Below are positions 921 through 63,182 of a stretch of DNA of 64,000 bases, in pieces. Under the pieces are notes generated by a model, which had not been told where the DNA came from, searched no databases, and worked only from the letters and a program-made list of their open reading frames with translations. The stretch is from Cephalotus follicularis. Taxonomy: Eukaryota; Streptophyta; Magnoliopsida; Oxalidales; Cephalotaceae. The first letter of the stretch is position 1. Each line of letters opens with the position of its first letter. Made by a program: the position numbers and the translations under genes. The DNA lies in contig BDDD01002862.1 of assembly GCA_001972305.1 (NCBI GenBank), positions 121,325 through 185,324 of the forward strand, given 5' to 3'.

Positions 921-1353
921 GGATAAGCGTCGACACTTATCCTTAGGGCGCCGACGCTTATCACCTCAAAGCGTCAACGTTTCGTGCGTTTAATCCCAGG
1001 CTTAGCATAACTAAATGCGTCGACGCTTTTCCGAAGGCGTCGACGCTTTCTTGATACCAGAAGATATCACTTCAGAAGTCTCCATTCCAGAGGGACATCC
1101 AACCCCCAAACTTACTTGAAATCCCAGAAATCTTACCCGTCGATGTGGTAAGCTCTATAGGTTATCCATGCATATAACCAGTTCATCAATCCATCAACAA
1201 ATCATACTATTATAAGTGACATTTCAGGTACTCGCAAGCAATGTCACATTTCTACAATTATTCGTATAAGGCGTCGACGCTTTCTTGAGAGTCGACGTCT
1301 ACTGTCCATTTCACGCATGAAGGTCGACATTTATCGTGAGCGTCGACGCTTTG
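921..1353. repeat. TCGA-palindrome clusters 1 and 2, T1 left LTR
   Basis: Units of the form GCGTCGACGC lie at 921-1050 and 1268-1353. They usually form pairs about 20 bp apart, as in the two units at 1018-1050. Several are worn by C-to-T or G-to-A changes at CpG (for example GCGTCAACG). The same clusters sit at the same place in the other LTR of this element. Confidence 0.8.
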
Positions 1354-2147
1354 ACAGCCCAGTAGCGTGATTTTCACGTTTTAACCAAAACCAGGGGAAA
1401 CAATCCAATAGACATGCAATCCAGTTTCGATTATTAACTTAGATTACTCATGCATAATTAGTTTGCACATCACAGTAATCATTCCAACAATCCTATCAAT
1501 CCAATCAATTCGCAAAACAACAACAATTCATGCATAATCAATGGCATGAACATTAGCTTAAGTTCCAATTTGCATATATGAAATCACCACAATTCCCCTA
1601 GCTTTTTGTTCCAAGTTAGGAATTAGAATGTCCACCCCTTTAAGTCCTAGAATCCAGCCTCATCAGCCTCAAGGTTCGTCCCGTTGCTGCTAGCCCACAA
1701 GCTTCAAGTTCCAAGCTCCAAAATGCTCAACAATGGTGGAAGTTCCCTTTCCTTCTCTCACTGGTTCCTTTTTAAACTCATTGGTTTCTATCCTTTCTCT
1801 TTTCACAAGTGTTTAGCCGAGAAAGAGGATGAAGAGGGAGGAGTTTTATGCTGGTCACACATCTCTCTTCCTTCTTTGGCCCGTTGCATGCATCTCACAG
1901 GCTCCATTTCCCATTTTCCTCTTTCCTAGTTTTTGTTCTTTTCTTTTCTTTTTGCAGGTGCAGGTGATAAAGGACACATATCCCCCTTGCATGCAATGAC
2001 TGAGGACATGTTTTTGGTGCATGCATGGCGTCTTGTCGCATGGCTAACACGTCTCCCTGTCATGTGAAAGGCGTCTGAATAAAGCTCTACACATGCCCCC
2101 TTGCACCGCGTTTCTGTCAGTATTAGAACGTGCCTGATATTTGACTA

Positions 2148-2303
2148 TAAGCGTCGACGTTTACATGCAGGCGTTGATGCTTATAGCGTTTTACCTCAAA
2201 GGCGTCAACGCTATCCACAGGCGTCGATGTGCATGTACATGCACTTACGTGCGCTTTTTGTTTCAAAGGCGTCGACGCTTTCCTTAAGGCATCGACGCTT
2301 TTA
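2148..2303. repeat. TCGA-palindrome cluster 3, T1 left LTR
   Basis: About six GCGTCGACGC-like units lie in a region that on the minus strand is 200-350 bp from the LTR start, so probably in U3. One unit is followed by a second palindrome, GTGCATGTACATGCAC. The matching cluster in the right LTR is at 12096-12228. Confidence 0.8.
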
Positions 2304-2502
2304 GCCTCAAACTGCACCGTTTGGCTTGAAATGCTTTTCTAACATTCTTTTAACAATTCCATATCATTCTTCTTCCAAAATTCAACGTCGTTAAAGTTAG
2401 GAAAACATCATCAAAGTCGGGAATTCTGACATTCTTGTTAATTCGCAACAGAGTTTCATTTCAAATTTAAATATTACAATAATAAAAATCCTGGGCGTTA
2501 CA

Positions 2503-2515
2503 TCCACCCCTCCTT
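2503..2515 (-). other. polypurine tract of T1
   Basis: On the minus strand this reads AAGGAGGGGTGGA and touches the TG that opens the 3' LTR. This is the position and composition of the plus-strand primer of an LTR retrotransposon. Confidence 0.75.
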
Positions 2516-2536
2516 CAAGGAATTTAGTCCTCGAAA

Positions 2537-4043
2537 TTAAACAATACTAAAATAAATGCGGGTAACGCTCTCGGATATCATCCTCATTTCCCAAGTAGCC
2601 TCATCCGGTCTGTGAAACTGCCATTGAACCTTCACCATGGAAATGGTTCGGTTCCTCAATGCTCTCGTCTTCCAATCTAGAATCCGCACCGGTAAGTCCT
2701 CGCAAGATAGGTCATCTTGCACAGCAACTGAATCGTGATCCAAGATGTGTGTAGGATCCTGGATGTAGCCTCGCAACATCGAGACATGGAAGACATCATG
2801 TACATTCGATAGTGCAGGAGGCAATGCGAGCTGATAAGCAACCTCCCTGACTCTCTCTAAGATCTCGAAGGGACCAATGTAGCGTGGAGCTAACTTGCCC
2901 TTCTTCCCGAATCTTTGTACCCCCTTCCACAGAGATACCTTCAAGAACACGTGATCTCCCACATCGAAGGTGAACGGCCTCCTTTTCACACTGTCGACAT
3001 AACTCTTTTGCTGACTCTGAGCTGCTAGTAACTTCTCTTTGATGAACTTGACTTTCTCCAAAGTCTCCTCCACTAAATCCAACCCAAGCAACTATCCCTC
3101 ACCAACCTCATCCCAACAGATGGGTGATCTACCCTTCCTCCCATATGGTGCCTCGTACGGGGCCATACTAATACTCGAGTGATAGCTGTTGTTGTATGAA
3201 AACTCTATCAAAGGAATATGGTCCTCCCAAGTACCCACAAAATCGATCACACAAGCCCGGAGCATATCCTCCAAGGTCTGGATGGTACACTCTGACTGTC
3301 CATCTGTTTGCGGTGAAATGCTGTGCTGAGATTCAATCTCGTTCCGAAGGCAGTCTGGAATCTCTTCCAAAAGTTGGAAGTAAAGATCGAATCCCGATCA
3401 CACACGATGCTCACTGGCACACCATGTAGTCTCACAATCTCCTTCACATATAATCGAGCCAACTTGCTCGCCCAGTCCGTGACATGCATAGGCAGAAAAT
3501 GAGCTGACTTTGTGAGTCTATCCACAATAGCCCACACTGCATTATGACGATGCCTAGTCAGTGGAAATCCAGAAACAAAGTCCATAGTGATGTGTTCCTA
3601 TTTCCACTCTGTAATCGGAAATGGCTGTAACAATCTTGCCGACTTTTGGTGTTCCGTCTTGACTTTCTGGCAAGTCAAACACTTCGCAACATACTCAGCA
3701 ATGTCTTTCTTCATACCGGACCACCAATAGTTCCTCTTCATGTCTTGGTACATCTTCGTGCTGCCAGGATGAATGCTGTACAAAGATTTATGAGCCTCAG
3801 ACAGTAATGCATCCTTCAACCATTCTCATTCGGAAGACAAACCCGTCATCGGAATCTCAATATACCATCTGCATGCATCCAAAAATCAGACTCCGGTCCT
3901 AGATTCTCTTGAATCTTCTGTAACTCCGGATCATACAGCTGAGCATTCTTTATTTCGTTAAGTAATGCTGGCTGTGCTTGAAGACTAGCGATAAAAACAC
4001 CCGGTGACTGTGTAAATGGTGTCCACCTCTGAAAGTCTTCCAA
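2537..4043 (-). pseudogene. T1 integrase with C-terminal chromodomain-like module (broken)
   Basis: Integrase of a Ty3/gypsy chromovirus, which would insert element cDNA into chromatin. From N to C: the zinc-binding region (HPGSTKMYQDMKRNYWW then CLTC, 3819-3598); the catalytic core beginning MDFVSGFP with the Asp of CDRD (3585-3247); then, after a frameshift, the segment with [16 protein letters not shown] holding the expected Glu region (3370-3092); and the GPFEILERV and HDVFHVSMLR linker, ending in a chromodomain-like tail with VKVQWQFHRPDEATWE (3091-2537). Frameshifts or stops near 3820-3845, 3590 and 3300, plus a stop at 3091, break the reading frame. The tail and core resemble the Tekay/Del lineage, whose chromodomain is thought to steer insertion into heterochromatin. 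The lineage call is from memory of the family, not a search. Confidence 0.85.
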
Positions 4044-4049: not shown

Positions 4050-5899
4050 TCATTGAGATACCATCGTACTAGCTAACATGACTTTACGACTCAATGCATC
4101 TGCGACTACATTCGCCTTCCCAGGGTGATACCGAATGTTACAGTCATAGTCATTAAAGAACTCCACCCATCTCCACTGCCTCATATTCAATGCCTCTTCA
4201 CAAAACAGGTATCTCAAACTCTTGTCATCAGTGAAAATCTCAAACTGCGCCCCATACAAGTAATGCATCCATTTCTGAAGAGCAAACACAATCGCAGCTA
4301 GTTCAAGATCATGCGTCGGGTAATTTTCCTCATATGGCTTCAACTTCCTCAAAGCATATGCAATCGCTCTGCCTCGTTGCATTAATACACAACCCAATCC
4401 CTTACCCGAAGCATCACTGTAAACCGCAAGATCCTCGTTACCCTCGGGCAACGCCAAAATAGGAGCAGTAATAGACCGGTCCTTCAACTCTCTGAAGCTG
4501 CACTCACAATCCTCATCCCAAATGAACAAAGTCTTCTTTTGAGTCAACTTCATCAATGGCACCGCAATCCTCGAAAAGTTCTGGATAAACCTCCGATAGT
4601 AACCCGCCAAGCCAAGAAAACTGCGCACCTCAGTCACGTTCCTTGGTTGCGGCCAATCTCGCACCACCTCAGTCTTTGACGGATCTACAGCCAAACCCTC
4701 TCTAGATACAATGTGACTGAGAAAGATCACATGGTCCAGCCAAAATTCGCACTTGCCGAACTTGGCATACAGCTGTTGTGCTCTAAGAATCTGCAAGACC
4801 AACCTCAGGTGGCATGCATGCTCCTCCTCGCTCCTCGAGTATACCAATATGTCGTCAATGAACACAACGACAAACTGGTCTAGATACGGTCGAAATACGT
4901 CATTCATCAATGACATGAATGCGACCGGTGCGTTGGTGACACCAAACGACATTACTAGGAACTCGTAGTGACCATACCTCATCCGAAAGGCAATCTTCTC
5001 AATGTTTCCTTCCCAAACTCTAAGCTGATGGTAACCTGAGATCAAATCGAGTTTGGAAAACACCCTCGACCTTTGCAACTGGTCGAATAAATCCTCAATG
5101 TGTGGAAGATGATACTTGTTCTTAATGGTGGCTTTATTCAACATCCGGTAGTCGATGCAAAGTCTCATCGACCCATCCTTCTTCTTCACAAATAATATAG
5201 GCGCACCCCACGGAGAAACACTGGGTCGGATAAAACCTTTATCAATCAGATCTTGCAACTGCAATTTTAACTCTCTCAACTCTGCAGGAGCCATCCGATA
5301 AGGTGCTTTAGAGATAGGAGCCGTTCTAGGCAAAAGATCAATAGCAAACTCCATACTCCTCTTCGGTGGTAAAGACCCTAAGTCTGTAGAAAACACATCC
5401 AGAAATTCACTTACGACAAAAATTTCTTCAATATTCATACCTTTCTCCTTTCTGTTGTCAATCACGTAAGCCAAACACCCTTCACATCCCTTTTCCAGAT
5501 ACTTCGACGCACGAATGTAAGATATGATCGATGTTGAAAATCCCTTGTCCCCCTTGAACTGAAATGTAGTCCCATCGGGTAGACTAAAATCCACTGTCTT
5601 GTTGTAGCAGTCCATGTGGGCACGATGGGCTGACAACCAATCCATTCCCAGAATGACGTCGAAGTCATAGATGGGCAACACAATCAAGTCAGCATATACA
5701 GAAATGCCTGCAATAGATAGTTCACAACTCCTATACACAGAATTTGTATACATGGAATTCCTGCAGGTGTACTCACATCGAGCATATATGACATACTGTC
5801 AGGTATCATATCTAAACATGATGCAAATCGTGAAGCAATGAATGAATGAGATGCTCTAGGATCCATCAATATTCTAGCAAAAAAACCACAAACATGCAA
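4050..5899 (-). pseudogene. T1 protease - reverse transcriptase - RNase H (broken)
   Basis: The middle of the pol polyprotein. The protease comes first (5899 downward), with MDPRASHSFIA at its active site. Chromoviruses usually have D-P/S-G-A/S here, so the glycine is changed to arginine. LGMDWLSAH follows in the next frame. A 567-codon open stretch (5753-4050) then carries reverse transcriptase with [43 protein letters not shown] and the catalytic [10 protein letters not shown]. RNase H follows with [13 protein letters not shown] and [11 protein letters not shown]. The RT-RNase H part is long and its catalytic aspartates are kept, so this is a fairly young copy. The frame is lost at the junction with the protease and before the integrase. 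Confidence 0.9.
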
Positions 5900-7200: not shown

Positions 7201-7213
7201 TGCTCTGATACCA
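7201..7213 (-). other. primer-binding site, initiator tRNA-Met type
   Basis: On the minus strand this reads TGGTATCAGAGCA, complementary to the 3' end of initiator tRNA-Met, the usual primer of plant gypsy chromoviruses. It lies four bases from the 5' LTR edge at 7218, which fixes the orientation of T1. Confidence 0.9.
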
Positions 7214-7277
7214 CTGTTGTCACACCCCGTTTTCCATAAGACAACGTTAAAGCGGTAAAGGCAATCAACATAACATT

Positions 7278-9652
7278 TGTAACACCTCGCGCCTGCAGGG
7301 CAGACACGTGGCATTACTCCCAATCCAATACACAATACAGTGGTCGGGACTAGCAATATAAAAATGCAGAAAAACTTAAAACTTTGCAATACATATCATT
7401 GTGCAGAAGATACAATACAATAAACCATCCATATAGTACAAATCCTTTACAATAACAATCTTTTACAGTACAATACATTTCAATCCTTTCACTACAATGT
7501 CTCATAACCAGCTCTGCAATACCCAATCAGTCGTGCAATCAAATCGAGTCTTCAATCCTTCTGTCCGCTGCTACCTACTACCCTACCTATGCCGCACACA
7601 AAATGTACAACACAGCCCCACCCCAAAGGATGGAGTTAGCCACACTGGCTAAGCAGAAACCTCAATGTGCAATATCGGTGGCAATCTATGCAATATCAAT
7701 GTGCGGTGTATAATATCAATGCATGACATGGCAAATGCATATGTACTGTTGGCGATCAGACTATCCGTATGACACTGGCCCATAACAGAGCATATGGATA
7801 GGATCTATAACAATCAATCAATGGCAGACACTCAGTGGTGGTGCATCAAACACCCAATCAATCAATCATATCCTATAGAGCATGCAACCTCGGGTCAGTA
7901 CAATGTCAATCAATAGCAATGATCAATCCCATGGAAGGTAGTCCTTCAAAAAAGGTGGGAGATCTATCTACTGTTCTCAGACTGATCAGGTCTGGAACTC
8001 GTAGATCTTCCAGCCTATGGTTGGGTCAATACAATATCGTTGAGCTACAACCGAGGGAGCTACTGTTACCGTTAGGGAGCTAGAGCCCTCAAGGGAGCAT
8101 CAATCGTCAATCAATACAATAATGCTCGTCAGCAGGTTAATACAATCCAATAAATGATACGATCGACAGAATAGGTGGACAGAGTCAACAACCTAACATG
8201 CCGACACGAATCATAAGGTCGCTCTATAGGATCCATACAATACAATCAATCAATCTGTCAGTATAATGCCGATAAGTGGTGATGTCTAATGGAGAAATGG
8301 GAATGAGTGTCCAACGTTCCGAATTTAGACTTACAACACTTATGGCTCAATCAATCAATCAATTAATTAATCAATCAGTCAGTCAGTAGCCAATAGACGG
8401 TGACAATCGAATCAACGAGATAGAAAGGAATGTCTATCCGGTTGATGAAAGTCACTGGATCGTCGCCTATGGCTCACTCTGTCACTTTATCAATTTATCA
8501 ATTCAATCTTTGAAAACTATAGAAAACTGTGTTTCAAACGCTTGAATACCTCAAGTGAGGCTCCGGTCAAGCGGCAATGTGAAAAGGAGTTGAAAACTAG
8601 CTTTAAAACAATTAAAAGTTCCATTCAGCCCGAAAGGCGTCGTTGTCCTTGGCCAAAGACATCGATGCGTATCAGGGCATTCTCTTAAAATGATAGAAGG
8701 ACATCGACGTCTTTGAAAGACATCAATGTCTTTCTCTATTTGTATAGAGATATGGCCGAAGGACGTCGATGTCTTTGAACAAAGACGTCGACGCGATTCA
8801 ATAAAAATAGCCTGGGAATGCGCATCGATGTTCAGCATCGATGTCTTTCCTGGGGAGAAGACATCTCAAGGAAAAGACGTCGATGTCTTTGCTGCGGAAT
8901 CAAGGATACAACATTCTAAAGCGAAAGACATCGACGTCCATGGGTTGGGGTCGATGTCTTTGCTAGACAGGGTCAAGTTTTGTGTAGAAAAAGTGGTCAA
9001 TCTCAAGTCAAAATCCAATTTAAAGCCATTCTTTGAAAACTAAGGGTTAAAATCAATCATTTAAGGTTAGTAAAACTTGTTACAACCTTCTAAATTCAGT
9101 TTCAATCCTCCTAGATTAGTTAGATCAAGGAAATCAATAAAAACCCTAGTTTTTCAATTCAATGCAATACAATCACTCAATTCAATCAATCATTCAATCA
9201 ATTATGCAATTAAGCAATAGGCAATCAAGTAGGGAAGTCCTACCTCTAACGAAGCTTCAAAGTTGAGCTAACGATCGGTCAATGACCGGAAATACTCAAG
9301 AATAGGCTGCTATGTCACTCAATCGGCAACCCACACTTGCAATCGGTATCCTTGTTGAAGGAGATGCAATCCGGCTGCTAGGGAGATGGAGGGAGGCTGC
9401 CAGCAAGAGAGAGAGGGAGAAGGATAGAGAGAGGGAGAAGAATGAAAGAATGAGAGAATGAGAGTGAGAAATTGACTTATACAGTCAATTTGACCAACTC
9501 TCCGAAACTCAGCCCAAAACCTCGACTATACATGCATATAATCAATACAATAACAATAGGTATAGGAATATCTCAATTCAATACAATTTGATACGGTCCA
9601 ATATGGTACAATGTATGCATGAACAGTACAAAAGGGAATTCGGGTCGTCACA
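7278..9652 (-). mobile_element. solo LTR S1 nested in the T1 LTR
   Basis: A 2375-bp TG...CA element flanked by a perfect 5-bp target-site duplication, ACATT, at 7273-7277 and 9653-9657. It contains no coding domains and no primer site, as expected after recombination between two LTRs. Its left edge (TGTAACACC, then CACGTGGCAT) resembles the left edge of the gypsy LTR at 52044, which suggests a chromovirus LTR on the minus strand. The middle is very rich in CAAT/ATCA words (8340-8390). A GA-rich tract lies at 9403-9460. Confidence 0.92.
8635..8962. repeat. TCGA-palindrome array in solo LTR S1
   Basis: About ten units of the form AAAGACGTCGATGTCTTT. Centre-to-centre spacings include 19 bp (8705 to 8724) and 22 bp (8767 to 8789). 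Units range from GACGTCGACG to GACATCGATGTC, the series expected from loss of methylated CpG. Confidence 0.85.
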
Positions 9653-10868
9653 ACATTATCCAGCTCATGCAATTTTACGAATAAATAAAAACTTGCGAAA
9701 GCATCATATAAATAAGCTGAATTTAAACACGTGTCACGCATCCCATACTACGTGACACTAAATTGTTCCATAACAATTCCCAAAATAAAGGTCGATTGCC
9801 CTCAAACGGAGCGTGATACTAAATACGATTACAAAATTCCATTATCCAGGATAAACATATTATCCGTTAAGTACAAAACCCAAATATAAATAACCATTGT
9901 TCATTGACACAATTAAAATACAAGATATGACATATCAGTCTTCTCTTCACTCCCAAACGCTCGCAACAACAATACCTGTTGCATCAATCTGTAATAGTAG
10001 GGGGTTAACCTTTGTCCTCACTCGACTAAGTAGTAAAGTCATAAATACAATTCAGGATTTAAGATAATGCATGTCATGTAATGTATGCAATCGTGGATGC
10101 AATACATAGTATCTAATAATAATACATATATATTTTTGTGTATATACATGTATAACGCCAATAGAGCAAACATGCCGATTGGCTACAATCCAACAATCCA
10201 ATATGCAGACAAATGCTACGAAGACATCGCCACCTCTTGGCTCAGATGTTGTACTCCTCACTCCGGTTTCGTCCCCCGAACGACACGAAGCAGGCCACAA
10301 TCCAATGTTACTAGCACGCAGCTAAGTAACCAATCCACCATGGGTAACTCTAGCCAACTCCTGGCACCTAGAGAGAAACCCACCATTAGCCGTCCATGGC
10401 AATCTCCACCATGCGACTAACAGCGACAATCCACAATCCAATTCAAGCCATTTATGAAGATAAATACTTGAGAACATATATATTTGTCAAAATATATAAC
10501 AATCCATTTTCCAAGTAAATCATGCATTATAAAATACTTGAAACAACATATTTGTCAAAATATGTAACAATCCTTTTAAACTGCATGTTTATTCAAAACA
10601 TGCTTCAATCCATTTTCAAAATTATATTTCGGTTTGAACATAGCAATTTATACAAAATAATGATTTATAATAAATCATGGGTGCAACTCCCTAAAAATGA
10701 TGATTCATTCTTATAGCAAGTAACAATCCAATTCAATCAACAATCCATAATCCAGGCTCAATACAATGCAAGTGCAATACAATCATACGCTCAAACATGC
10801 CTAGAGTTGTATCTAGAGTCGTTTCGGAGCTAACGGGTCCAATCCAAGTAAAACCATTCAAAACAGGA

Positions 10869-11300
10869 GGATAAGCGTCGACGCTTATCCTCAGGGCGTC
10901 GACGCTTATCACCTCAAAGTGTCAACGTTTCGTGCGTTTAATCGGCTTAGCAGAACTAAAGGCGTCGACGCCTTTCCAAAGGTGTCGACGCTTTCGTGAT
11001 ACCAGAAGATATCACTTCAGCAGTCTCCATTCCAGGGGGGAATCCAACCCCCAAACTTACATGAAATCCCAAAAATCTTACCCACCAATGTGGTAAGCTC
11101 TACAGGTTATCCATGCATATAACCAGTTCATCAATCCATCAACAAATCATACTATTATAAGTGACATTTCAGGCACTCGCGGCAACGTCACATTTCTGCA
11201 ATTATTCGTATAAGGCGTCGATGCTTTCTTGAGCGTCGACGTTTACTGTCCATTTCACGCATGAAGGTGTCGACGCTTATCATGAGCGTCGACGCTTTGA
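10869..11300. repeat. TCGA-palindrome clusters 1 and 2, T1 right LTR
   Basis: The first unit, 10869-10890, is a perfect 22-bp palindrome centred on GCGTCGACGC, and a second unit is centred 21 bp on. 10958-10975 is a perfect 18-bp palindrome, AAAGGCGTCGACGCCTTT, with its partner 20 bp away. In the second cluster (11212-11300) the pairs are 18 and 19 bp apart. These copies are better kept than those in the left LTR. Confidence 0.85.
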
Positions 11301-12095
11301 CAGCCCAGTAGCGTCATTTTCGCGTTTTAACCAAAACCAGGGGAAACAATCCAATAGACATGAAATCCAGTTTCGATTATTAACTTAGATTACTCATGCA
11401 TAATTAGTTTGCACATCACAGTAATCATTCCAACAATCCGATCAATCCAATCAATTCACAAAACAACAACAATTCATGCATAATTAATGGCATGAACATT
11501 AGCTTAAGTTCCAATTTGCATATATGAAATCACCACAATTCCCCTACCTTTTTTTTTTCCAAGTTAGGAACTAGAATGTTCACCCCTTTAAGTCCTAGAA
11601 TTCGGCCTCGGCAGCCTCAAGGTTCGTCCCGTTGCTGCTAGCCCACTAGCTTCAAGTTCCAAGCTCCAAAATGCTCAACAATGGTGGAAGTTCCCTTTCC
11701 TTCTCTCACTGGTTCCTTTTTAAACTCACTGGTTTCTCTCCTTTCTCTTTTCACAAGTGTTTAGCCGAGAAAGAGGATGAAGAGGGAGGCCTTTTATGCT
11801 GGTCACACATCTCTCCTCATTCTCTGGCCCGTTGCATGCATCTCACAGGCTCCATTTCCCATTTTCCTCTTTCCCATTTTGTGTTCTTTTCTTTTTTTTT
11901 TGCAAGTGCAGGTGATGAAGGACACCTATCCCCCTTGCATGCAATGACTGAGGACATGTGTTTAGTGCATGCCTGGCGTCTTGCCGCATGGCTAACACGT
12001 CTCCCTGTCATGTGAAGGCGTCTGAATAAAGCTCTACACATGCCCCCTTCCACCGCGTTTCTGTCAGTATTAGAACGTGCCTGATATTCGACTCT

Positions 12096-12228
12096 AAGCG
12101 TCGACGTTTACATGCAGGCGTCGACGCTTATAGCGTTTTACCTCAAAGGCGTCGACGCTATCCACAGGCGTCGACGTGCATGTACATGCACTTACGTGCG
12201 CTTTTTGTTTCAAAGACGTCGACGCGTT
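12096..12228. repeat. TCGA-palindrome cluster 3, T1 right LTR
   Basis: Five units centred near 12102, 12122, 12153, 12172 and 12220, most of them GCGTCGACG. On the element's own strand they lie about 200-330 bp from the LTR start, where U3 enhancers and the promoter are expected. Confidence 0.8.
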
Positions 12229-12429
12229 TAGCCTAAAACTGCACCGTTTGGCTTGAAATGCTTTTATAACATTCTTTTAACAATTCCATATCATTCTTCT
12301 TCCAAAATTCAACGTCTTTAAAGTTTGGAAAACATCCTCAAAGTCGGGATTTTCGACATCCTCATTAATTCGCAACAGAGTTACATTTCAAATTGAAATA
12401 TTACAGTAATGAAAATCCCGGGCGTTACA

Positions 12430-14389
12430 TAACATCAAGAATATATTATTGCTGATATTTCTAAAACATCATCCGCGATTTTTTTTTTCTTTCAAAAATT
12501 CAGTGTCGATGTCGCATTTTTGTAACCACTGATTTTAATCCTATTGATTCATATAATCTCTATTATACCTTTACAATTATTTCTATAATTGAAGAGGTGG
12601 ATCCTATTTGAACTTAATCCCTTTTATTTCTGGCTTCATTTCTTAAATGGTGTCTATATATGTTGCTGCTATTCATTCGTGAAAAGCGTATCAACATATC
12701 CAAATTAAATTTTCTTAATATTTTTAAAATTAATTAAATTCGACTAAAAAATAAAAAGAAGATATAGATTATTTTAAATAAGTGAGTTACACATATCTAA
12801 AGTTAAAATGAATGGATTAAATATGATTATTTGGGATTATATTTTATTATTACGAAACTTACAATGGCTTGAACTGTAATTAAGTAGGGAGTTTAAATGT
12901 AATTCATTAAAAAATGTAACACTCTTTTGTAATACAAGGTGTGGACAATATTTATTATGGACTTTTGGTCTGTTGTGTGAGAACAGATCATCTGCTCCTC
13001 TAAATTCGTTGAAAAAACTAAGATAAGTAGGGTTGTGCAGTATCAAAACATCATTGGAACCTAAAAAGTTGCTTAAAAAAAGGACAAGACTTTCAATCGA
13101 TTTAGTGTTCGTTTGGTAATGCGTTGGAAGGCACAAATGCACTTTTTTCTCCTAATTCAATCCAAAAAAAAAGTTTGGTAATAAATTTAATAAGCGCGTC
13201 TGTTACAATCAATTTTTTTAAAGCGTTGAAACACTATTTTTCTTTACACATGAAATTCCTGTGTTGAAAAAATGCAAAAGTGATTTCTCCAACTGGGCAC
13301 TTATAATATGTTTGACAAGAAGATTAAAAAAAATAGTGAGAATAGAAAATTGTAAAAGAAAAGAATGAGAAAAAAAATACAATTGATTTTTCATTTATTT
13401 CACAAATTCAATTGTTAAATTTATTAATCTATATATGATATATGCATATGTTAAATATTTCTAACTATTTCATATTGATATAACAAATTTTATCATTATA
13501 TGTATTTAGCTGAACATGAGATATTCAATTGACTTAAAAATTTAAAATATACATATATCATATATAGATTATCAAATCTAACGGTTAGATTTGTAAAAAA
13601 AAAAAAAAGAGTTCCTTATAGGAAAAAGAGTGATTCCTTTTCTTTTAAAAAAAAGTATCAAATTCTGTCAATATTCTAATTTGCTATTTTGATTACAGAA
13701 CTTAAAAAATTGGTATTGACTTTTGTCATGTTGAAGTGTTAAATTAACCTGGTCATGTAATGCACTGAGTAATATTATTAATCATAAGTATAATAATATC
13801 ATAAATACATCACAAATGATCATAAATACACTTTTTCACTTTTTTTTATACATATTATTGGTTTTTTTATACATATTTTAGGGGAAGGGAAAATGAGGTA
13901 AAATACGCTTGTGAGGATATTCCCAAGACTTCTCACTTTTAAGAATGAGATCATCATACTGCAAAATTATTAACTATTTTCCACTTTTTTATATACGCCA
14001 AAAAAAAAAGTTTAAATATGAATCAGAACTTAGTTATAAGAAGATAAATATGTAAGTATGTGAATAATAAAAAAAAAGAACAGAGTAATATTATTAAGGG
14101 CTTGCAAACGCGTCTTAAAAATCAATAATATTTTCAAAATACTGGGTAAATAGCATTACTGGAGATAAACACAAAAGGATTGGTGACGTGGCAAGAGTAG
14201 TAACTGTTTGCTTTCCTCCCCATGAAAGAAGCGCGAAATTATATGGCTGCCTGCCTCATTTTTGACTTGTTCTATCAATGTTAATGGTAAAAATGATTTA
14301 AAAGAGAGAAGATATTTAGATCCGAAATGAAGCTCTACGTTTTAGGGTTTCTCTTATATGCAATTACCCTGTAAAGGATAATCTTCAGC
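12430..14389. other. AT-rich upstream flank, no gene seen
   Basis: Single-copy-looking AT-rich DNA between the gypsy element and the NADKc-like gene, with many A and T runs (for example 12480-12488 and 13596-13610). I find no coding domain or terminal repeat. The last few hundred bases must contain the promoter of the downstream gene. Confidence 0.6.
14343..14350 (+). promoter_or_regulatory. telo-box-like element upstream of the NADKc-like gene
   Basis: TAGGGTTT, the reverse complement of the plant telo-box AAACCCTA, lies about 40 bp before the proposed start codon. Telo-boxes are common near transcription starts and in 5' leaders of plant housekeeping genes. A single 8-mer is weak evidence. 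Confidence 0.35.
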
Positions 14390-31482: not shown

Positions 31483-31485
31483 GGG

Positions 31486-43072: not shown

Positions 43073-43202
43073 TGTGACGCCCCGAGCCCAAAGGATGAGC
43101 CCGACACGTCACCTGATGTCCTATAACCATTCACTTAGTCCTATAGTTTGCGTATTAATATAAGTGTATCCATAAAATGCGGAATTTATTAAAACTTTTA
43201 AG

Positions 43203-48892: not shown

Positions 48893-51341
48893 TGCTGGAA
48901 ACCAGGCAAGGGTTCCCGGTCAATTTGGTCCTAAGACGCAAGTGTGTATAATTTTAATTTGTCAAAAACACCAAGACAGTAAGTATAGGTTCACACTAAC
49001 ATCTTAGTACCAAATTGAAAAGCCTAGGATCACCGTTTAATTAATAATCAAACTAAAGCAAAATCAAGCAAGCATACAAAGATAATTCAAAACCATATCA
49101 GAAACAACAATTATAAAAGGGAAGCAATCATACGAACGTTGGAGGCTCCACCACTTTGTCGCTACACGCTTGCAGAAGCCACCGCTCGTCGCTGGACCTA
49201 CTGCTCGGAATCCGGCGAGCACGCCAGCGACCAGCCAAAACATCGTTGGACTCCAAAAATTCCGGTCTACCCATTTCTGGCAGAGACTAGCCGGGAAGCA
49301 CCCCAGAACATGGAGAATAGCGACAGAGACTCACTGAGTTTGGACTCAGTGAGTCTCAATCAACTCGCCATTAACCGCCCGTGACATATATGGATGCCAA
49401 ACACCTGATCTCCACACCGGTGTCTGTAACTCGCTGAGACTCGGCTAAGAACGCTAGACAAAGCTGGCGGTGAGTCACTGAGATGACTCACTGTTCATCA
49501 TCAGCGGCGGCCAAGCCACAAAAACGCCTCAGCGTCTTCAGGCCAACACACCTACACCCTAGACTCGCCGTGACTCGGGCCAGAACGCCAAGCCACGACG
49601 CACAACGAGTCGACTTGGCAAAGTCGACTAACCATCAAAAAACTGGCAAGAAAACATCGAGAAAAGCCTAATCTAAGGTCAATATAGGTAGAGCCAAAGG
49701 TTCGCTCCACCTACTAAGACCACCGGCGGTGAAAAGAGAAGGCCGGCAGCGGGAGATGCTAAAACGCGTCACGGCAAAACAGAGAGAGAAAAAGAGAAAA
49801 CGGGGAGAGAAGAAGAAGAGGCATACCATGGATGGAAGACCGCCTCTTTCCCCGGCCACCGACGCCAGCAGCGTCGTCTTCTCTTGCTAGAAGCCCCGTC
49901 CAGGTGCTGCGCACGCAAGTCATGCGCACCTCCCCTGTTTGGCATACCCGTGACGCCAAAAAGACAAAAGAAAATAATAACCTTCATCTCTTTTTGTCTC
50001 TTTCTTCTTTTATTATAATTGTCTCTCTCTTGTTTTAATTATGTGCCCCGCACATAGTATGTATCAACATACTCCCACTATGGTTCTCTTTAATATATCA
50101 ATTGACAATACGGTGGTAAATAAAAATAAATCACTAATGTTAAATTAATATATACTAGTTAAAACTAGATTTTTCGTCAAGCTAGCATGTGTGCGGCATG
50201 CATCGCTTTTTCAATAATCAGGCGGAACCCGAAAGCCCGGTGGATTTCCGGTACGATGATAAATTTCCCATAACATCCCAAAGTTCTGGTACGACTATCC
50301 AACTAATAGTCCCGGTGTGATCTTTACCCCCGGATCCGCGGACAACAAAGTACCATGTCTATCATTCGTTAGCCGGTTCCCCAGTGCTTTATCACTGTCA
50401 TCGGTTTGTGTGCCACATATCCCTCATCATCTCGGCTCCGATCGCAGACTAGGGTTTGGATTAATTTCACCCCTAGGTAAAACTGCGATAACTATAATTC
50501 CATGAACGCACTGAGACTATGGGAGATTTACCCGGAAACCTCTTGTTCCCAATCTCCCAGTGCCTGGCCAGGACTTTAAGTCTTCAACGGTCATAGATGT
50601 TATAGAGCCTATAACCCTCAACACGGGTGTGACTATCCCATCTTGCGCACTCGCTCATACATCTCGATGCAGCTCCCATAAGGCCCAAAGACAACCCTTT
50701 TCCAGCACATGGCTAGTGCTGGGGAAGGTGAAAATCAAAACCAAGCAGTTACTACACAATGCATGCCAGCCGCTCAAGTCTAAGGACACAACGTAAATCA
50801 TGTATGATCTACTAGTCACCTTTGACTAAGCACTAGCGTGACAATATGAACTTTATTGATAGAGGTGTTGACTCTCCAAATAGATAACCTATGGTGGGTC
50901 GGTTCAGTATCGTGCCTCTGCACGCACCCCGCATCAGGTTTAGGGTAAAACCCAAATGGCTATGAGATGATCCATCCTCCTTTACCATTCGGAGCAAGCA
51001 TAACACAACAAGTTTTTGCAGTTCATCAATTGCCCTAAGAAAGTGAACCTATGACTTAGAAATTTTGTCGCAAGGGAGTAAGGATGTCATTCTCATAACC
51101 TCTCAAGTACGAGATCCAACCCTTTACGGATAGGGCGCTATATGTGTATTCAGTTGACATGGTGATCAACTGATCCGTTGAGACTGTTTGGGATAATACA
51201 TATAGCCAGATGCCAATCTTTATTAAATATGCACAATAGAACATGAATGGAACTAAGAATGTACGATTCAAGAGTGTGTCATATGTAAAGGACATATATC
51301 TATAGCCTCTTCGTGGCTTGCAGGGACACCGTAATCTAACA
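48893..51341 (-). mobile_element. solo LTR S3 (copia F family) nested in relic G
   Basis: 2449 bp, TGCTGGAAACC to ATCTAACA, with a perfect GATAC target duplication at 48888-48892 and 51342-51346. It aligns over its whole length with the 3' LTR of copia F at 56195-58614, so it is the same family on the same strand. Recombination between LTRs has removed the interior. A perfect hairpin lies at 49326-49357. The open frames in it (49139-49960) are on conflicting strands and not conserved in F. Confidence 0.92.
49326..49357. repeat. 14-bp-arm hairpin in solo LTR S3
   Basis: GAGACTCACTGAGT at 49326-49339, TTGG loop, then the exact reverse complement at 49344-49357. The homologous site in F (about 56625-56662) keeps an inverted-repeat shape with different bases (GACCGA ... 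TCGGTC). Confidence 0.9.
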
Positions 51342-52043: not shown

Positions 52044-54314
52044 TGCCATGCCCCGAACCATTGGAGGACCCCACAGCTCAACACGTGGCATACCGTCCAT
52101 ACAATCCATCAGTATACAATAACATAATACAAAAATATGCTATAAATTAAAACTTTTATACATAAATATGCATACGGAAACATCCATTTAATACTTGCAC
52201 AGATAAGCCCAATATACATATCATGTCATCAACAATTGTCTGTAGCACTGCCATAAGCTGGCATGTCAATACAACTGAAATACATCACTCCTATACAACC
52301 AGTCTTATATATTCGAATCTCATATAAGGTAGATAAACAAAATACAGAACTGCTATCCAAATCCTATCCTGGAGGTCTGATCCATCACTTCAAAGCATCC
52401 TCTGCACTCGGCCGTAGATGTTGTGCCCATTTCGAGAATGGGTTAGCCAAACACAGCCATGTAGGTAATACTATATGCAATGAAGTGAACAGATATACAG
52501 ATATATGCATGGCATATGAGATGCATGAATGCAAATTGTGGACAACGTTATTACATCAAATGTCCCTAATCAGTGGCATACGTAATGATGTCCTAACCAT
52601 AGAATCACAATCCATACACCCTAGGTCTATAGATAATCCATCAATCGATCAATAACCATACAATGTGTGCAATCAATCCATAAGGTCTATCTTCGTCGTC
52701 TGCACACACACACCGTTTCGTAGACGAGTGAAGTCGAGATAACATTGACCACGCCAATAACAATCCAACCCCCAATCCCCGAAGGTTCTAGCCCAATTAC
52801 AATCCAATCGATCATTTACTCAATATGGTACCATCTTCCTATAGTCCATCCACAATGCGGTGTCTCCCTGAAGGTTCACCCCTAAAGGGATGTTCTTATA
52901 GTGCCACTCAATAAACGATATCAATTTCAATCAATAACGATACAATGTGGTCTACACCTAACCTTCATGACGAAAATGAAGATTAGAAATGAGTTATCTC
53001 GTCGACTCTCAAACAATGACAATCCATTAACCAATACCATAAATCATTTAAAAGATAGGTTCCTCATCATAAAGGATCACATAGGATCTATTCGTCAACC
53101 ACTACGACAATCAATCAACAATGCTAGTTCTCGTAGGTCTTGGCTCTCAATTTTGTTCCCGAAGGTCCACCTATGACAATACAATACACATTTCGGTCTC
53201 TATCAGAGTTTATAAAACCATTTATAGAAACCTTGTTAAAAATCCATTGAAGATCGATTTGTAACTCGATTGTGTCTAAAAGGAGGTTCTCATTGGTTAC
53301 ACGGCCTTAGAGAGGCTTCCTATGGATCCCATTTGAGTGTAGAAATAACTGGAGTTAAAAAGGGGTTGAAACCATTTCATTTTGTACAAAAACAGGGCAA
53401 ACCGTCGCCCTTTAGTACAAAGCATCGACGATTTGTGCCTAGCAAAGCGCCGACGCTTTGACAAAAGCGTTGCCGCTTTGTGCCTAATCAGCTAAAGCGC
53501 TGATGACAGTTCGAGGCATCGACGGTTGAATCCATTCAAAGTACCGACACTTTGGCAGGAGCAGAAACTGTCCGTTCATCACTTTTCACTTTCCAAAATC
53601 CATTTCAAAACAATTTAAACAATTTAAACCATGATCCAAGGGAGCTATAAGCTCCAATGGTCAATTAACACTTAAAACCTTCTTTAAACTATCGAAATCC
53701 ACTTCCATTAACTATAAATTGAGAGAGAAAAGAGATTGAGGCAAAAGTCCCAAAACTCATTAATCTCTCTCTGATTTCCATTGCGATCCATTTTAAACCA
53801 TACCATTTACCCTAGCTCACTCATCTAGTCCCGATCTATCATCCCATAACCATACAATCATTCAATTCCATCAATATGCATGGATTCAAATCATATATGT
53901 AGAACCTACCTCGATAACAGTTGAGCTATAGATCTGGAATGATTGGCTGTTGAATCCTTGATATGATCCTTCATTCAATTTATACACTCTGCCACGAATC
54001 CAATGGCTCCTTCAAATCTCAAATCCGAGCTCTCTCTCTCTAACTCACTATTTCACTATCTCTCTAGAAGGAGAAGAAGATAAATTATGAGAAAGAGGAT
54101 TTCAGCTCACCTATATATAGGCTCCCTGGGCGGATAACTCATAAACTTGACCTAGGTTCTATTGAACCCCTATAACCCATAAACATCCATGGAATGGAAA
54201 ATACTATAATATTATATACCATCAAAACCATCCATGAATACAATATTGTACAATACTGTACATATATACAATCAATTACAATCCGATATAAACATTTACA
54301 ACCTGGGGCCTACA
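52044..54314 (-). repeat. 3' LTR of gypsy element H
   Basis: About 2.27 kb, with plus-strand edges TGCCATGCCCCG and GGGGCCTACA. The left part resembles solo LTR S1 (CACGTGGCAT, CAATCCAT words). A polypurine tract, TAAGGAGGAGTGGA on the minus strand (54315-54328), touches its start. The partner LTR is lost or outside the window. Confidence 0.85.
53402..53555. repeat. degenerate TCGA-palindrome array in LTR H
   Basis: Seven or so worn units (AAAGCGCCGACGCTTT, AAAGCGTTGCCGCTTT, GCATCGACG). Centres at 53406, 53426, 53451 and 53471 give spacings of 20, 25 and 20 bp. Confidence 0.75.
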
Positions 54315-56194: not shown

Positions 56195-58614
56195 TGTTGG
56201 AACCCGGGAGGGGTCCCGGTCGATTTTGGGTCTAGAATGCAAGTGTGTATAATTTTAATTTTTCAAAAAACACCGAGATACGAGTCATGGTTCACAATTA
56301 CATCTTACTACCAAAATCTATGCGCCTAGGATTTCCGTTTAATATTCAATCGAACAAACCGTAAAGTCAAGCATACATCCACTTAACCGAAACCGATTCG
56401 GTAAACAACAAATACATAAGATTAGGAACCATACCAACGTTGGCGGCTCCGTCACTTTACCGCTACACGCTTGCCGAAGCAACTGTCGTTATTGGCTCCA
56501 TTGCTGGTTTCCGGCCAGTCCACAAAAAAGTCAACCAAGACACCAACAAACTCCAAAAAATCTGCTCAGCTTATTTCTGGAGGAGACGTACTGGGAAGCG
56601 CTCCGGAAGGCGGCGAACAATGGCAGTGACCGACTAAGTTTAGACTCAATGTGACTCGGTCAACGCGTCATTGACCGGCGGTGACATATGTGGACGTCAA
56701 CACCCCAACAAACCCATTGGTGGCCAAGACTCGCCGTGACTCGGGCTGAAACACCAAGTCACAGAGTCGACTCAACAAAACGAATCTGGCCACAAACGCA
56801 CTAGAAAACACCAGGAAAAGCCTAATCTAAGGTCTAGGTAGGTAGAGCCAAAGCTTGGCTCTACCCACGGTGACTGTCGGTGGCGGAAGAGACGCCGACA
56901 GTGGGAGACGCACAAAGCGTCGGGCCAAAAAACAAAGAGAGAGAAGGATAAAAACGGGGACAGAAGAGAGAGAGGCTTACCGTGGATGAGAGGCCGCCTC
57001 TTTCCCCGGCCACTGACACCAGCGGCGTCGACTTCTCCGGCCGGAAGTGCCGTCCAGGCGCTGGCACACGCAACGCGTGCGTCTCCCCTATTTTGCGCGT
57101 TACCAGGCTCAATGGCGTGTTGTGTTGCCAATTTTGACCATGTCAAAAACATAAAAGTCTCTTTCTCCCTTTTGTATTAAAAAATAACACAATAAAAAGT
57201 TTCTCTCTTGTTTTACATATGTGCACCCCGCACAACGTATGTTAAACATACTCCCACTGTGGTTTATCTTAATATATCAATTTGACAATACGGTGGTAAA
57301 TTTAAATAAATAAATAAATCACTAATGCCAAATTAATGTATACTAGTTAAAACTAGATTTTCTGCCAAGCTAGCATGTGTGTAGCATGCATCGCTTTTCC
57401 AATAATCAGGTGAAACCCGAAAGCCTGATTTGAATCCGATATGACTATAAATTTCTCAGAACATCCCATTAGTTATGGTACGACTATCCCAATAGTCCTT
57501 GACTATTAAAACAGCCTCGGTGTGAATCCCATCACCCCCTGGATCCGTAGAATCAACTACGTCTATAAGTCGACATCCGGTTAAACCAGTACTTTATCCA
57601 GTCATCGGCATATGTGTCATGTATCCTACGTCATACTTAGCTCCGACCTCTACCTAGGGTTCAGAATAATGTCACCCCTAGGTAAAGTCGCGATAACTAT
57701 AAATTTATGTACGCATTGAGACTTTTGGCAAACTTCCCCGGAAACCCCATTTCCAGTCTGCCTATACCTGATCAGGGTTTTATGAGTCTCAACGGACATA
57801 AATAATATAGAGCCGATCACCCTGCATACGGGTGTGACGATCCTTTATTGCGAACTCGCCCATACATCTCAATGAAGCTCCCACAAGGCCCAAAGACAAC
57901 CCTTTTGCCAGCACGTAGCTAGTGCTAGGGAAGGCGGAAATCAAAGTCAAGTAGTCACAACACAATGTCTGCCAGCCGCTCACGTCTAACGATACAACGT
58001 AGCTCCACGAATGGTCTACTAGTCACCATTGACTATACACTACCAAGACTATAGGAATCCTATTGACATAGGTATGACTTTCCAAATAGGTTTCCTATGG
58101 TGGGTCTGTTTAGTCTCATGCTCCTTAGCACGAACCCCGCATTATGCTTTAGGATAAATCCAAATGGTAATGAGATGGTCCATCCTCCACATAACTCGGG
58201 AGCAAGCATAATACGGCAAGTCTTTACGGTTCATCTATTTCCCTAAGAAAGTGAACCTATGACTTGGAACGTTCTGTCAGAAGGGAGTAAGAATCTCATT
58301 CTCATAACCTCTCAGGCATGAGATCCAACCCCTCGAATGACAGGGCACTATATGTGTACTCGGATGACATGGTGATCATCCGATCCATTTAAGATGGTTT
58401 GGGATATACATATAGCGGGTTGCCATTATTGATTGAATATGCACTATAAAACACAAAAAGGAATTCAGATTGTATAAATAGAGAGTGTAATATACACACA
58501 TGCAGCTGCCTCGCGGCTTAAAGAGATATCTCCAGTTAAGATGTGCATCTCATACATACATATATATTTGTGCAGAGCCACCTCGTGACATGCAGGGACA
58601 CCCCTACTCTAACA
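56195..58614 (-). repeat. 3' LTR of copia F
   Basis: 2420 bp, TGTTGGAACCC to CTCTAACA, homologous to solo LTR S3. On the minus strand it starts TGTTAGAGTAGGGG directly after the polypurine tract. It was inserted into the reverse transcriptase-RNase H junction of gypsy H. Confidence 0.88.
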
Positions 58615-60690: not shown

Positions 60691-61279
60691 CTCTTTCAGA
60701 AACTTGAGTCGACTCCCACTCCCTAGTTTGCTCACCCAAATCTAAAAGAAAATTCCAAGCCTCGTTTTCATTCGTGTACAAGGTGAACCCATTGGGACAC
60801 ATTGATTCGACCTATTGCTTGGTCTGGTAGTCGATCCCTTCTTAGATGATTTGGCATAAATACCACGTGTTTAAACCATGATGAGGACACTCTAAGAGAA
60901 GGTCTTTGAAACGTTCCATACATCTAGAGAATGATTCATTGGGTCTTTGGTGAAACTGAAAAATGTCGTTCCTAAGCTTATTGGTTTTATGAAGAGGATA
61001 GAATTTCTTAAGGAACGGGACATTGAACTGATTCCAAGTGGAGATGGAATTAGTTGGGAGACCGTAGAGCCACTTCTTAGCTCCATCTTTAAGAGCAAAA
61101 TTGATGAATTGCAACTTGATATCATCGTCAGATAGTTGCTCAAGTTTCATGAGGGCACATACCTCATCGAACTCGCGAAGGAAGAGATATACATTCTCAT
61201 TGGGTAATCCATGGAAGTGCGGGAGCATGCTAATGAACTGTGATTTTAACTCAAAATTGTTCTCGTTAGGTGCAGACAA
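60690..61279 (-). pseudogene. Athila-type gypsy I gag, N-terminal part (truncated)
   Basis: 61279-60842 reads as 145 residues with FISMLPHFHGLPNENVYLFL, LKDGAKKWLYGLP, FLKKFYPLHKTNKLRNDI and ERFKDLLLECPHHGL, the standard retrotransposon gag domain of Athila/Tat-type gypsy elements. After a stop it continues (60802-60690) with VESMCPNGF, NENEAWNFLLDL and EQTREWES. It then changes abruptly into copia integrase of element F. Gag is about half its usual length, and no pol of this element is in the window. Confidence 0.85.
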
Positions 61280-61933
61280 CAGGATACTGGATGATTGCGT
61301 TGTCCTAGCGCGTTAGAATCTATCGCGAAGAGTTTGAATTGGGCGTGCATCCGTCATTGGTGTAATTGGGTGGTTAATTATTTCTAAACGATTATTGTGA
61401 CCACGCACCCAATCAGGCATACCCTAAATGAAATTCTAACGAATGCAAGAACACAAACTTAAAGCACAGAAGAAAACCTAAGGTTAACTAACAGAAAATG
61501 TTAATGAACAGTAAACACAAAGCAAATAAGAAAATTAAAACTATTTAAACTAAGTTAGAAATTGTTAAAGATTATGCAATGAAGTTAGAATTTTGTTAAA
61601 GGTTATGATGCATCCTAATTAAATTAAGTTAGAATTGTTAGAAAAATCTTTAAAAAATAAATAAAAATAAATAAACAGAAAAATAGTAAAAATAAAAACA
61701 AAATAAATACTACTAATGCAAAACAAAAAGGGAAAAATAGACAAAACACTAACAGAAAGCACAAACGGAGAATTAATAACTAACGCAAAACACACATTAA
61801 AACAGAAAATGCTAAATTAAATTAAGTAACATAAATTAAAGCAGAACACAAAGTAAAATAAACCAGTTTTTGTTCAATCTAAACTAAATACTACGAATAA
61901 GTTAAATAAATTTAAACTAATTTAAAACCGTTT
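61280..61933 (-). other. untranslated leader of gypsy I
   Basis: A-rich on the plus strand (long runs of A with scattered C/T), with no gene. It lies between the primer site and gag, as is usual for Athila elements, which have long leaders. Confidence 0.6.
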
Positions 61934-61950
61934 ACCCGGCAACGGCGCCA
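61934..61950 (-). other. primer-binding site, tRNA-Asp type
   Basis: On the minus strand this reads TGGCGCCGTTGCCGGGT, which matches the tRNA-Asp 3' end used by Athila-type elements. It lies six bases from the LTR edge. Confidence 0.9.
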
Positions 61951-62343
61951 AAAACTTGTTCATTTAAAAAGAATGTTTTAAAATTTATAGCCGCAAGTGC
62001 ACGGATCAAGCAGTAACGAGTCAAACGTAGGAAAACGTTAAACTAGTTGTAATCTATCCAACCTAAGCGAAGTATGAAAAATCAAGGTTTAATTATGAAA
62101 ACTACTCCTAATTATGCAAAATAAAATAAATAATCAAAACAGGAACTTAAGACTTCGAGAGTTAAAAACACTGAATTCGAAATACCAAGAAATAAAGCAT
62201 GCAATTTTAAAACGAATCAAAATAATGAATAAAAGTAAAGAAAATATATAATTAAAAAGCGGTCTTAGGGTATAGAAACTCACCGTAGATTGTATTGAAC
62301 AATTCCATTTAATAGAACGATCATACCTTGATAACCAGCGGCA

Positions 62344-62495
62344 GCTAGGTCGATACGGAGTGCGACGGTGATGACAAGACGTATGAGTAGTCATGCTAGG
62401 TCTATACGAAGTACGGCATCAACGACAAGACGTATGAGTAGTCATGCTAGGTCTATACGAAGTGTGTTTGTTGTGACAAACCGTATGAGTAGACT
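62344..62495. repeat. 51-bp tandem repeat in LTR I
   Basis: About three copies of a 50-51-bp unit with GACAAGACGTATGAGTAG (starting 62373, 62424, 62474) and CTAGGTCTATACGAAGT. The first and last units are more diverged. Confidence 0.88.
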
Positions 62496-62880
62496 CTGTT
62501 GATTGAGTTAAGCACCACTTATTCACCAACTTTCAGCTTCACTGACAAGATGTTTGTGGATTTTAATCAGACAGACAAAGTGTGTGTGAAGGCAGAAATA
62601 TTGAAGAGAAAATCAAATATTTAAGGATTTTTATTGATGGAATTGAAACAATAACAATCTAGGCTTGTTCTTCCCTAAAACTTTGAAGAGTTTAGCTACT
62701 AAACATTGTAAAACAAACTAGAATTGATAAAGAAGAAAATAGGGTTTCTACCAGCCTCTCCTCTCAATTTGGCCGGCCTTGCATTGTTTTTATACTACAT
62801 AATTGATCAAAAACGAAAATAAATCAATCCTGGTTACAAAATCTGGCAAAAAATCTAACTTTCTATTTCTGCTGGAGAAG

Positions 62881-63182
62881 AAGACGTCGACGCCTTTGGT
62901 TGAAGGTTGACGTGTTTCGTAAAAAATTGCGTTTTGCTAAGATGCGCGTAATGAACATCGATCCTTTTGATGAAAGACGTCGATGTGTTTTGATCCAAAA
63001 TTCACAGGTCGAATTTGCACAAAGACATCGATGCGTTTAGTGAAAGACATCGATGTCTTTCTCATAGCATTTGAATGTAGGCTGCAATCCCTGAAAGGAC
63101 ATCGATCCACACCAAAAGACGTCGATGTATTTACTATAAACCCATAAAAGACATCGATCCTTATGAAAGACATCGGTGCTTT
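62881..63182. repeat. TCGA-palindrome array in LTR I
   Basis: About nine units of the AAAGACATCGATGTCTTT type. 63042-63061 is a perfect 20-bp palindrome, GAAAGACATCGATGTCTTTC, and its neighbour is centred 22 bp away at 63029. The arm words are the same as in the unrelated solo LTR S1. Confidence 0.88.

Follow-up and report, generated by a model that had tools for sequence, protein, structure and literature searches.

Helically spaced arrays of TCGA-centred palindromes in the long terminal repeats of several retrotransposon lineages of Cephalotus follicularis

Why should retrotransposons of different superfamilies carry, in their long terminal repeats (LTRs), the same kind of short palindrome repeated at nearly the same distance? 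The question is raised by a 64,000-nucleotide stretch of the Cephalotus follicularis genome (contig BDDD01002862.1, positions 121,325 to 185,324; hereafter, the window), which is occupied by LTR retrotransposons nested in one another. A preliminary description of this DNA reported clusters of palindromes centred on TCGA, about 21 bp apart, in gypsy, copia, and Athila-type LTRs. Here, we find that these palindromic boxes are strongly enriched, that they are shared across superfamilies, that the length of their spacers is constrained without constraint on spacer sequence, that genome-wide pair counts, not collapsed by family, are in phase with the DNA helix, and that some arrays lie upstream of a TATA sequence. 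On balance, we think it probable that the arrays are cis-regulatory modules of the unique 3′ (U3) part of the LTR, made of dimer sites phased on one face of the helix, read by a host protein, and activating transcription.

Abundance and spacing of the boxes

Perfect TCGA-centred palindromes of at least 10 bp number 33 in the window, against 3.3 in shuffled sequence (dinucleotides kept, 500-bp blocks), and the palindrome clusters of the preliminary description are real. Palindromes centred on ATAT (38 versus 9.6) and TATA (29 versus 8.8) also exceed the shuffles. Three box types occur far above expectation in the window: AAAGCGTCGACGCTTT, searched as AAAGCRTCGAYGCTTT with up to two mismatches (26 matches, 0.06 expected); AAAGACRTCGAYGTCTTT, with up to three mismatches (22 matches, 0.16 expected); and CCAGTCGACTGG, with up to two mismatches (15 matches, 0.94 expected). 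Box types cross superfamily borders. The GCG-type box is present in both the gypsy element T1 and the copia element B of the window, and the CAG-type box in the copia element L039 and the gypsy element L040, two elements with LTR pairs on contig C1 of the same genome. The centre of 129 CAG-NNNN-CTG boxes reads TCGA in 50, CCGA in 20, TCGG in 16, and CCGG in 3. The replacement of TCGA by CCGA or TCGG in 36 of the 129 (in the L039 LTR and in D) creates an RCCGAC core, as in DREB sites.

The arrays of the window, placed by their box sites, are the following:

924-1049, 1268-1352, and 2148-2301, reverse strand: three arrays in the 3′ LTR of T1, a chromovirus-type element
8633-8962, forward strand: array of AAAGACRTCGAYGTCTTT-type boxes in S1, a solo LTR
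10872-10994, 11212-11298, and 12095-12229, reverse strand: three arrays in the 5′ LTR of T1
23230-23408, forward strand: array of AAAGCGTCGACGCTTT-type boxes in the 5′ LTR of copia B
24494-24648, forward strand: a further copia B array, placed in the leader after the primer-binding site (PBS) at 24176
30538-30716, forward strand: array in the 3′ LTR of copia B
35234-35580, reverse strand: array of CAGTCGACTG and CAGTCGGCTG boxes in D, a solo LTR of a Sirevirus-like copia family
46371-46408 and 46489-46527, reverse strand: box pairs in S2, a solo LTR
46704-46793, strand not assigned: E, CCAGTCGACTGG-type boxes just outside the S2 LTR, with no element assigned
53419-53553, reverse strand: H, a chromovirus-type LTR with decayed AAAGCGTCGACGCTTT-type boxes (SH3_Tf2-1 match); the LTR starts near 54265, and its opposite end was not located
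62880-63183, reverse strand: I, boxes in the LTR of an Athila-like element

The preliminary map of the clusters is amended in its coordinates, and also in that S1 is nested in the T1 5′ LTR, E lies outside S2, and the array in the B leader had been missed. The latter has sites at 24501, 24521, 24573, 24620, and 24640, with gaps of 20, 52, 47, and 20 bp, and presumably lies in the transcribed part of the element.

Adjacent boxes in the window are 19-22 bp apart in 15 of 36 gaps, where random placement, given an 18-bp exclusion, yields 6.8 on average (P 0.0002); this test used one copy per LTR pair and hand-cut clusters, and excluded H and S2, which have too few sites under the strict criterion. 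The same distance dominates the whole genome. In 1,577,397,061 bases, with every family copy included, 178,594 pairs of GTCGAC lie 16-26 bp apart, centre to centre, of which 166,339 fall at 20-22 bp (two turns) and, by subtraction, 12,255 elsewhere in that range. There are 7,931 pairs at 30-32 bp (three turns), 964 at 35-37 bp (3.5 turns), 75,674 at 41-43 bp (four turns), and 17,067 at 51-53 bp (five turns). The whole-turn classes of a 10.5-bp helix thus outnumber the 3.5-turn class, the one half-turn class counted, 8 to 170 times, and this in-phase excess is what duplex recognition on one helix face predicts. The reversed pattern CAGCTG, counted as a control, gave 2,533 pairs at 16-26 bp, 1,742 at 20-22 bp, 146 at 30-32 bp, 153 at 35-37 bp, 702 at 41-43 bp, and 555 at 51-53 bp. 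It is itself phased, with 1,742 of its 2,533 close pairs at two turns and 702 at four, against 146 and 153 in the classes between, and may represent a second palindromic box family with the same phasing.

Smaller samples agree with these counts. Among the first 100 places listed on contig C1 for GTCGACN{10,20}GTCGAC, 85 of them distinct, every spacing is between 19 and 23 bp where 16-26 bp was allowed (five at 19 bp, 24 at 20, 59 at 21, 11 at 22, and one at 23). Twenty 10-kb stretches, one from each of 20 contigs and taken at even steps, hold 141 sites spread over 17 of the stretches, and a marked 19-23-bp peak is seen for GTCGAC alone among palindromic hexamers (27 pairs; the next, GACGTC, has 5). 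The roughly 21-bp spacing of the preliminary description therefore holds in the window and across the genome, and the genome-wide counts of GTCGAC pairs show a sharp peak at 20-22 bp, together with phasing of the control. Its placing of the palindromes on a single helix face agrees with the excess of in-phase classes over the 3.5-turn class; the dimeric factor it named is something we, too, infer.

Conservation within and between arrays

The constraint on the arrays is on spacer length, not on spacer sequence. Within 3 bp of the box centre, the mean pairwise identity of units is 0.61-0.95 in eight of nine arrays (0.37 in I); at 10-13 bp from the centre, it falls to 0.21-0.30 in eight of nine, where chance gives 0.26, the exception being S2 (0.46), whose box pair is duplicated. 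The earlier remark that spacers are not conserved between units is borne out. Similarly, 283 kb of sequence yielded 34 dissimilar pairs after the removal of near-copies, which lowers identity slightly, and the 16 spaced at 21 bp show 0.21-0.34 identity over nine middle spacer columns. The centre is the most conserved part in five of nine arrays, and in CAG-type boxes one half-site varies roughly independently of the other (CCGG centres, 3 observed versus 5 by hand estimate).

The LTR pairs of T1 and B bear on where this constraint acts. At non-CpG positions, 10 of 227 box positions differ between the two LTRs, compared with 183 of 4,116 in the rest. Boxes diverge like their surroundings, which argues that the constraint acts on the replicating element, before insertion. 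At CpGs, changes affect 14 of 125 box positions and 50 of 245 others, a raw difference over box sites taken mainly from one copy. The ratio of observed to expected CpG is 1.1-2.0 in nine of ten arrays and 0.5 in the D array, versus 0.63 for the window.

Whole-LTR shared descent was rejected as a general cause of the arrays, as the LTRs of T1, B, D, and I align with each other, if at all, inside the arrays. To this extent, the carriers are unrelated, as first claimed; the LTRs of T1 and S2 do align, and these two elements belong to one lineage. When arrays were aligned with arrays (13 pairs aligned), eight pairs between element kinds showed spacer-column identities of 0.50-0.80, values from an uncalibrated procedure that maximises matches, and arrays may have been exchanged between families.

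Candidate readers and competing explanations

How could such arrays work? Each ~18-bp TCGA-centred palindrome would be a site for a putative dimeric DNA-binding protein, since a palindromic site suggests a dimer. The protein is most likely encoded by the host: element proteins differ between lineages and the box is common to them, which makes a reader supplied by the host the simplest assumption. Neighbouring sites at a distance of two helical turns (or of three or four) would align the dimers on one face, where they could cooperate and probably activate transcription from the LTR promoter; the retention of 4-14 boxes by the elements makes an activating or anti-silencing effect likelier than repression. 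Several lineages would use the same reader, through convergence or array exchange, and local duplication would have re-shaped box number and flanks. We infer the protein, its dimeric state, the cooperation, and the activation from the layout of the sites. A parallel in working is offered by the U3 region of human T-cell leukaemia virus type 1, where 21-bp repeats with a palindromic core form an enhancer bound by CREB and Tax; this is an animal retrovirus with three copies of the repeat, and the analogy is one of working only.

The position of the arrays fits such a module in some elements. In S2, D, L039, L040, and T1, the arrays begin ~170-200 bp from the LTR start, with further T1 arrays reaching ~1.6 kb into the LTR, and lie 0.7-1.4 kb into the LTR in H, B, and S1. 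A TATA sequence follows the array by 43 bp in D (near 35191), and TATA-like sequences do so by 87 bp in I (62794) and 174 bp in H; in L039, the boxes are followed by the TATA sequence CTATAAAAGG ~43 bp further on, as judged by eye. L040 carries its CAGTCGACTG boxes in U3. Of the 55 clusters in the first 495 kb listed of contig C1, 20 are matched at a distance of 2-25 kb by a nearly identical cluster, the pattern expected of LTR pairs.

Several observations count against an activating, helically phased module. No TATA-like sequence was found near the S2 array, and B and S1 have theirs far off, at 691 and 572 bp. Box flanks differ between families, and a single reader would have to tolerate this. 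Window gaps longer than 26 bp are not significantly phased (n = 18, Rayleigh p 0.26 at 10.5 bp), and phasing is weak in the 283 kb (n = 53; p 0.04 at 10.5 bp, 0.003 at 21 bp). The genome counts were not collapsed by family, and families recur among the pairs listed at 31 bp as well as at 36 bp; the counts set whole turns against one half-turn class, and CAGCTG, being phased, makes an imperfect null. Units agree better in the arms than at the centre in H, I, E, and the B leader, and the two halves of AAAG-type boxes match above independence at six of seven offsets (e.g., 0.69 versus 0.55 at offset 3), perhaps because families were pooled.

Taken at its widest, the host-reader interpretation has one host protein, or a few paralogues, serving as the common enhancer factor of most LTR lineages in this genome, with its arrays acquired or exchanged independently by gypsy, copia, and Athila-like elements. 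We put this forward tentatively, as a possibility that we would not yet bet on; if true, mapping where the factor binds would chart the regulation of the entire mobile genome. Palindromic boxes in LTRs have been on record since 2010, without a reader assigned to them (PMC2829016). A box that crosses superfamilies, a strict two-turn rule, and more than 160,000 closely spaced pairs make a concrete bait. A quantitative prediction follows, that shifting the spacing by half a turn should lower activity. The bait would be a route to a host factor exploited by LTR retrotransposons of different origin, and to an explanation of why arrays persist despite inviting silencing.

The best-surviving competitor, which we nevertheless consider unlikely, holds that the lattice arose by tandem duplication of a 20-21-bp unit through slippage or unequal exchange, so that the spacing is historical and without function. 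The second-highest pair peak, at 41-43 bp, is expected on this account; Tandem Repeats Finder reports 19-25-bp repeats in seven rows at the arrays, and an 87-bp stretch of D recurs 126 bp further on with 78% identity. However, spacers have lost their similarity while keeping a length of 20-21 bp, palindromes remain similar where the neighbouring sequence does not, and pairs at 30-32 bp, which is no multiple of 21, are eight times as frequent as those at 35-37 bp.

Rather unlikely, in our judgement, is that the palindromes act once transcribed, by folding into RNA hairpins, and that their spacing is incidental; such hairpins might serve as small-RNA templates, a role proposed for the LTRs of maize Sireviruses. 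Every one of the nine arrays tested folds more stably than its shuffles (z from -3.1 to -9.7), but any palindrome folds, so these scores do not discriminate. In maize, palindrome-rich LTR regions concentrate small RNAs, according to the part of an article that cites Bousios 2016 for it (PMC10760457), and the matching halves of AAAG-type boxes and the location of the B leader array are what a hairpin would call for. Against these stand the approximate independence of CAG-type half-sites, a 10.5-bp phasing that hairpins do not need, and the position of the centre, which would be the hairpin loop and yet is the most conserved part in five of nine arrays.

We regard it as improbable that the boxes draw host silencing, as repressor sites or as an array attracting CpG and CHG methylation, and persist since they are hard to lose. 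Nine of ten arrays are CpG-rich, CAGTCGACTG contains both CG and CHG sites, and the CpGs of boxes change more than other box positions (14/125 versus 10/227). On the other hand, the D array is not CpG-rich, box CpGs change, if anything, less than CpGs elsewhere in the nominal comparison above, and a silencer kept in 4-14 copies brings no gain to the element. Equally improbable is a reader encoded by the elements, an anti-silencing or activator protein like VANC of VANDAL transposons, whose targets are short motif arrays in non-coding parts (PMC12844716, in the part available), to which one L039 open reading frame (ORF) piece adds leucine-zipper matches below the curated cut-offs (E 2e-4 and 7e-4), for the box is common to gypsy, copia, and Athila-like elements with differing proteins, and 20 scanned ORF pieces of the window (of 56 of at least 100 aa) had no match to a transcription-factor-type domain.

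Known box systems and the elements of the window

The preliminary description knew of no named element type to which the arrays answer. This does not hold, as Sirevirus repeated-motif (RM) boxes, published by Bousios et al. in 2010, precede them: in the accessible text, these boxes are palindromic, CpG-rich, located upstream of the TATA, and termed Sirevirus-specific, each element having 8-32 of them in the upper LTR half and more in internal non-coding DNA (PMC2829016). Two of the 13 RM boxes listed there are TCGA-centred, CGGTCGACCG of Vitis and ACAATCGATTGT of Tnd-1; all but one have a CGG-CCG core, classic copia elements lack the boxes, and a spacing rule was not seen in that text (PMC2829016). 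In Cephalotus, boxes occur also in gypsy chromovirus-type and Athila-like elements and in a copia element that lacks the signature of multiple polypurine tracts (PPTs), the cores of T1, S1, S2, H, and L040 boxes are mostly GTCGAC and ATCGAT-like instead of CGG-CCG, and a 21-bp helical phasing is found. Element D belongs to the known Sirevirus RM-box kind. As in Sireviruses, the D and L039 arrays lie in the upper LTR shortly upstream of a TATA. L039 also has an internal array (4494-4669), closely followed by ORF pieces that match Transposase_32 below threshold; it may correspond to the RM copies that precede ENV in Sireviruses, although these matches are weak and ENV was not identified.

Other systems share single features with the arrays. 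In maize Sirevirus LTRs, the available part of one study places palindrome clusters in the cis region and reads them as RNA hairpins and small-RNA hot spots; their core differs from ours. One of these palindromes, CACCGGACNNNGTCCGGTG, ranked first among the motifs of structured Helitron regions as well; on that partial text, sharing between classes of transposable element has thus been seen already (PMC10760457). The LTR of the wheat gypsy element RLG_Quinta has been proposed to have taken a motif from the copia LTR RLC_Gisela, an exchange of one 162-bp motif, with palindrome arrays not seen in the part of the article at hand (PMC11302176). The short interrupted repeat cassettes (SIRC) of Arabidopsis consist of brief direct repeats separated by varied spacers and are frequent in mobile elements, including Athila; ~57% of their repeats are without a palindrome, and in the accessible sections they are not U3-bound and phasing is not seen (PMC10342631). 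VANC targets likewise form short non-coding motif arrays in transposable elements with a specific protein reader, but, from the part of the source seen, they concern DNA transposons, an element-encoded reader, and a nine-base motif (PMC12844716). A full-text search of the literature in a PMC subset did not find gypsy-borne arrays of such boxes in print. As far as searched, two features are new: the strict helical phasing, and the occurrence of one box in LTRs of gypsy chromovirus-type, Athila-like, and non-Sirevirus copia elements.

The LTRs that hold the arrays have the following limits:

1-2505, reverse strand: T1 3′ LTR, extending 352 bp past the left window edge (self-alignment of 1-2503 with 9949-12430, 93%; left end from L042)
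7217-12432, reverse strand: T1 5′ LTR, with S1 nested inside (PBS 7202-7213, LTR start and end)
7278-9652, forward strand: S1 solo LTR, nested in the T1 5′ LTR (target-site duplication ACATT)
21937-24174, forward strand: copia B 5′ LTR (LTR pair 94.5% identical, edges; RVT_2, zinc knuckle, and integrase pieces)
29251-31483, forward strand: copia B 3′ LTR (LTR pair)
34660-35752, reverse strand: D solo LTR (LTR start the same as in L039)
45305-46695, reverse strand: S2 solo LTR (LTR ends, target-site duplication ATTTC, alignment with the T1 LTR)

The pol pieces of T1 match RVP_2, RVT_1, RNase H, and SH3_Tf2-1, which makes it gypsy, not Ty1/copia; a chromodomain gave no match at E 0.01, though the gypsy domains and SH3_Tf2-1 were found. 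Its PBS is of a type that we assume to be initiator-Met. S1 was chosen among many candidates with TG..CA ends and a target-site duplication because the T1 3′ LTR is without that stretch: L042 2649-2708 and 2700-3000 match 7218-7277 and 9649-9948, and the S1 stretch is missing. As solo LTRs, S1 and S2 are classed from LTR ends and alignment alone. Element I, called Athila-like on its PBS and gag alone, has a gag piece at 60845-61312 (Retrotrans_gag) and a PBS at 61939-61950, presumably of the tRNA-Asp type; its outer LTR end was not found within 4 kb of right flank.

Copia B, with LTRs of 2.2 kb, has no purine run of at least 9 in 28801-29260 and so lacks the Sirevirus multiple-PPT signature. 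L039, by comparison, has a copia gag, an LTR start identical to that of D, and PPT-like GGGGGA at 6200, 6239, 6350, and 6478 ahead of a 3′ LTR at 6487, which is the Sirevirus signature; reverse transcriptase had no match among the four L039 pieces scanned. L040 is gypsy by Ty3_capsid and RVP_2 and has an LTR pair, the left LTR being interrupted by a ~680-bp insert.

The best named relatives of the window's proteins come from plants. Viral contigs searched for relatives of three element proteins gave none that was confirmed, and lone palindromes in viral contigs (3 and 7 contigs) are presumed to be chance matches. Two old B-related LTR stretches, 48893-51284 and 56195-58493, are ~75% alike and 62-66% identical to the B LTR; an outer-arm scan of both found no TCGA-centred box, so arrays may be gained or lost inside one copia lineage. 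D is flanked by identical 68-bp direct repeats (34592-34659 and 35754-35821) where a ~5-bp target duplication is expected, perhaps the product of an unusually long duplication or of a template switch at insertion. Tandem repeats lie outside the described LTRs at 41637-42593 (372 bp, 2.5 copies) and 43195-43709 (256 bp, 2 copies).

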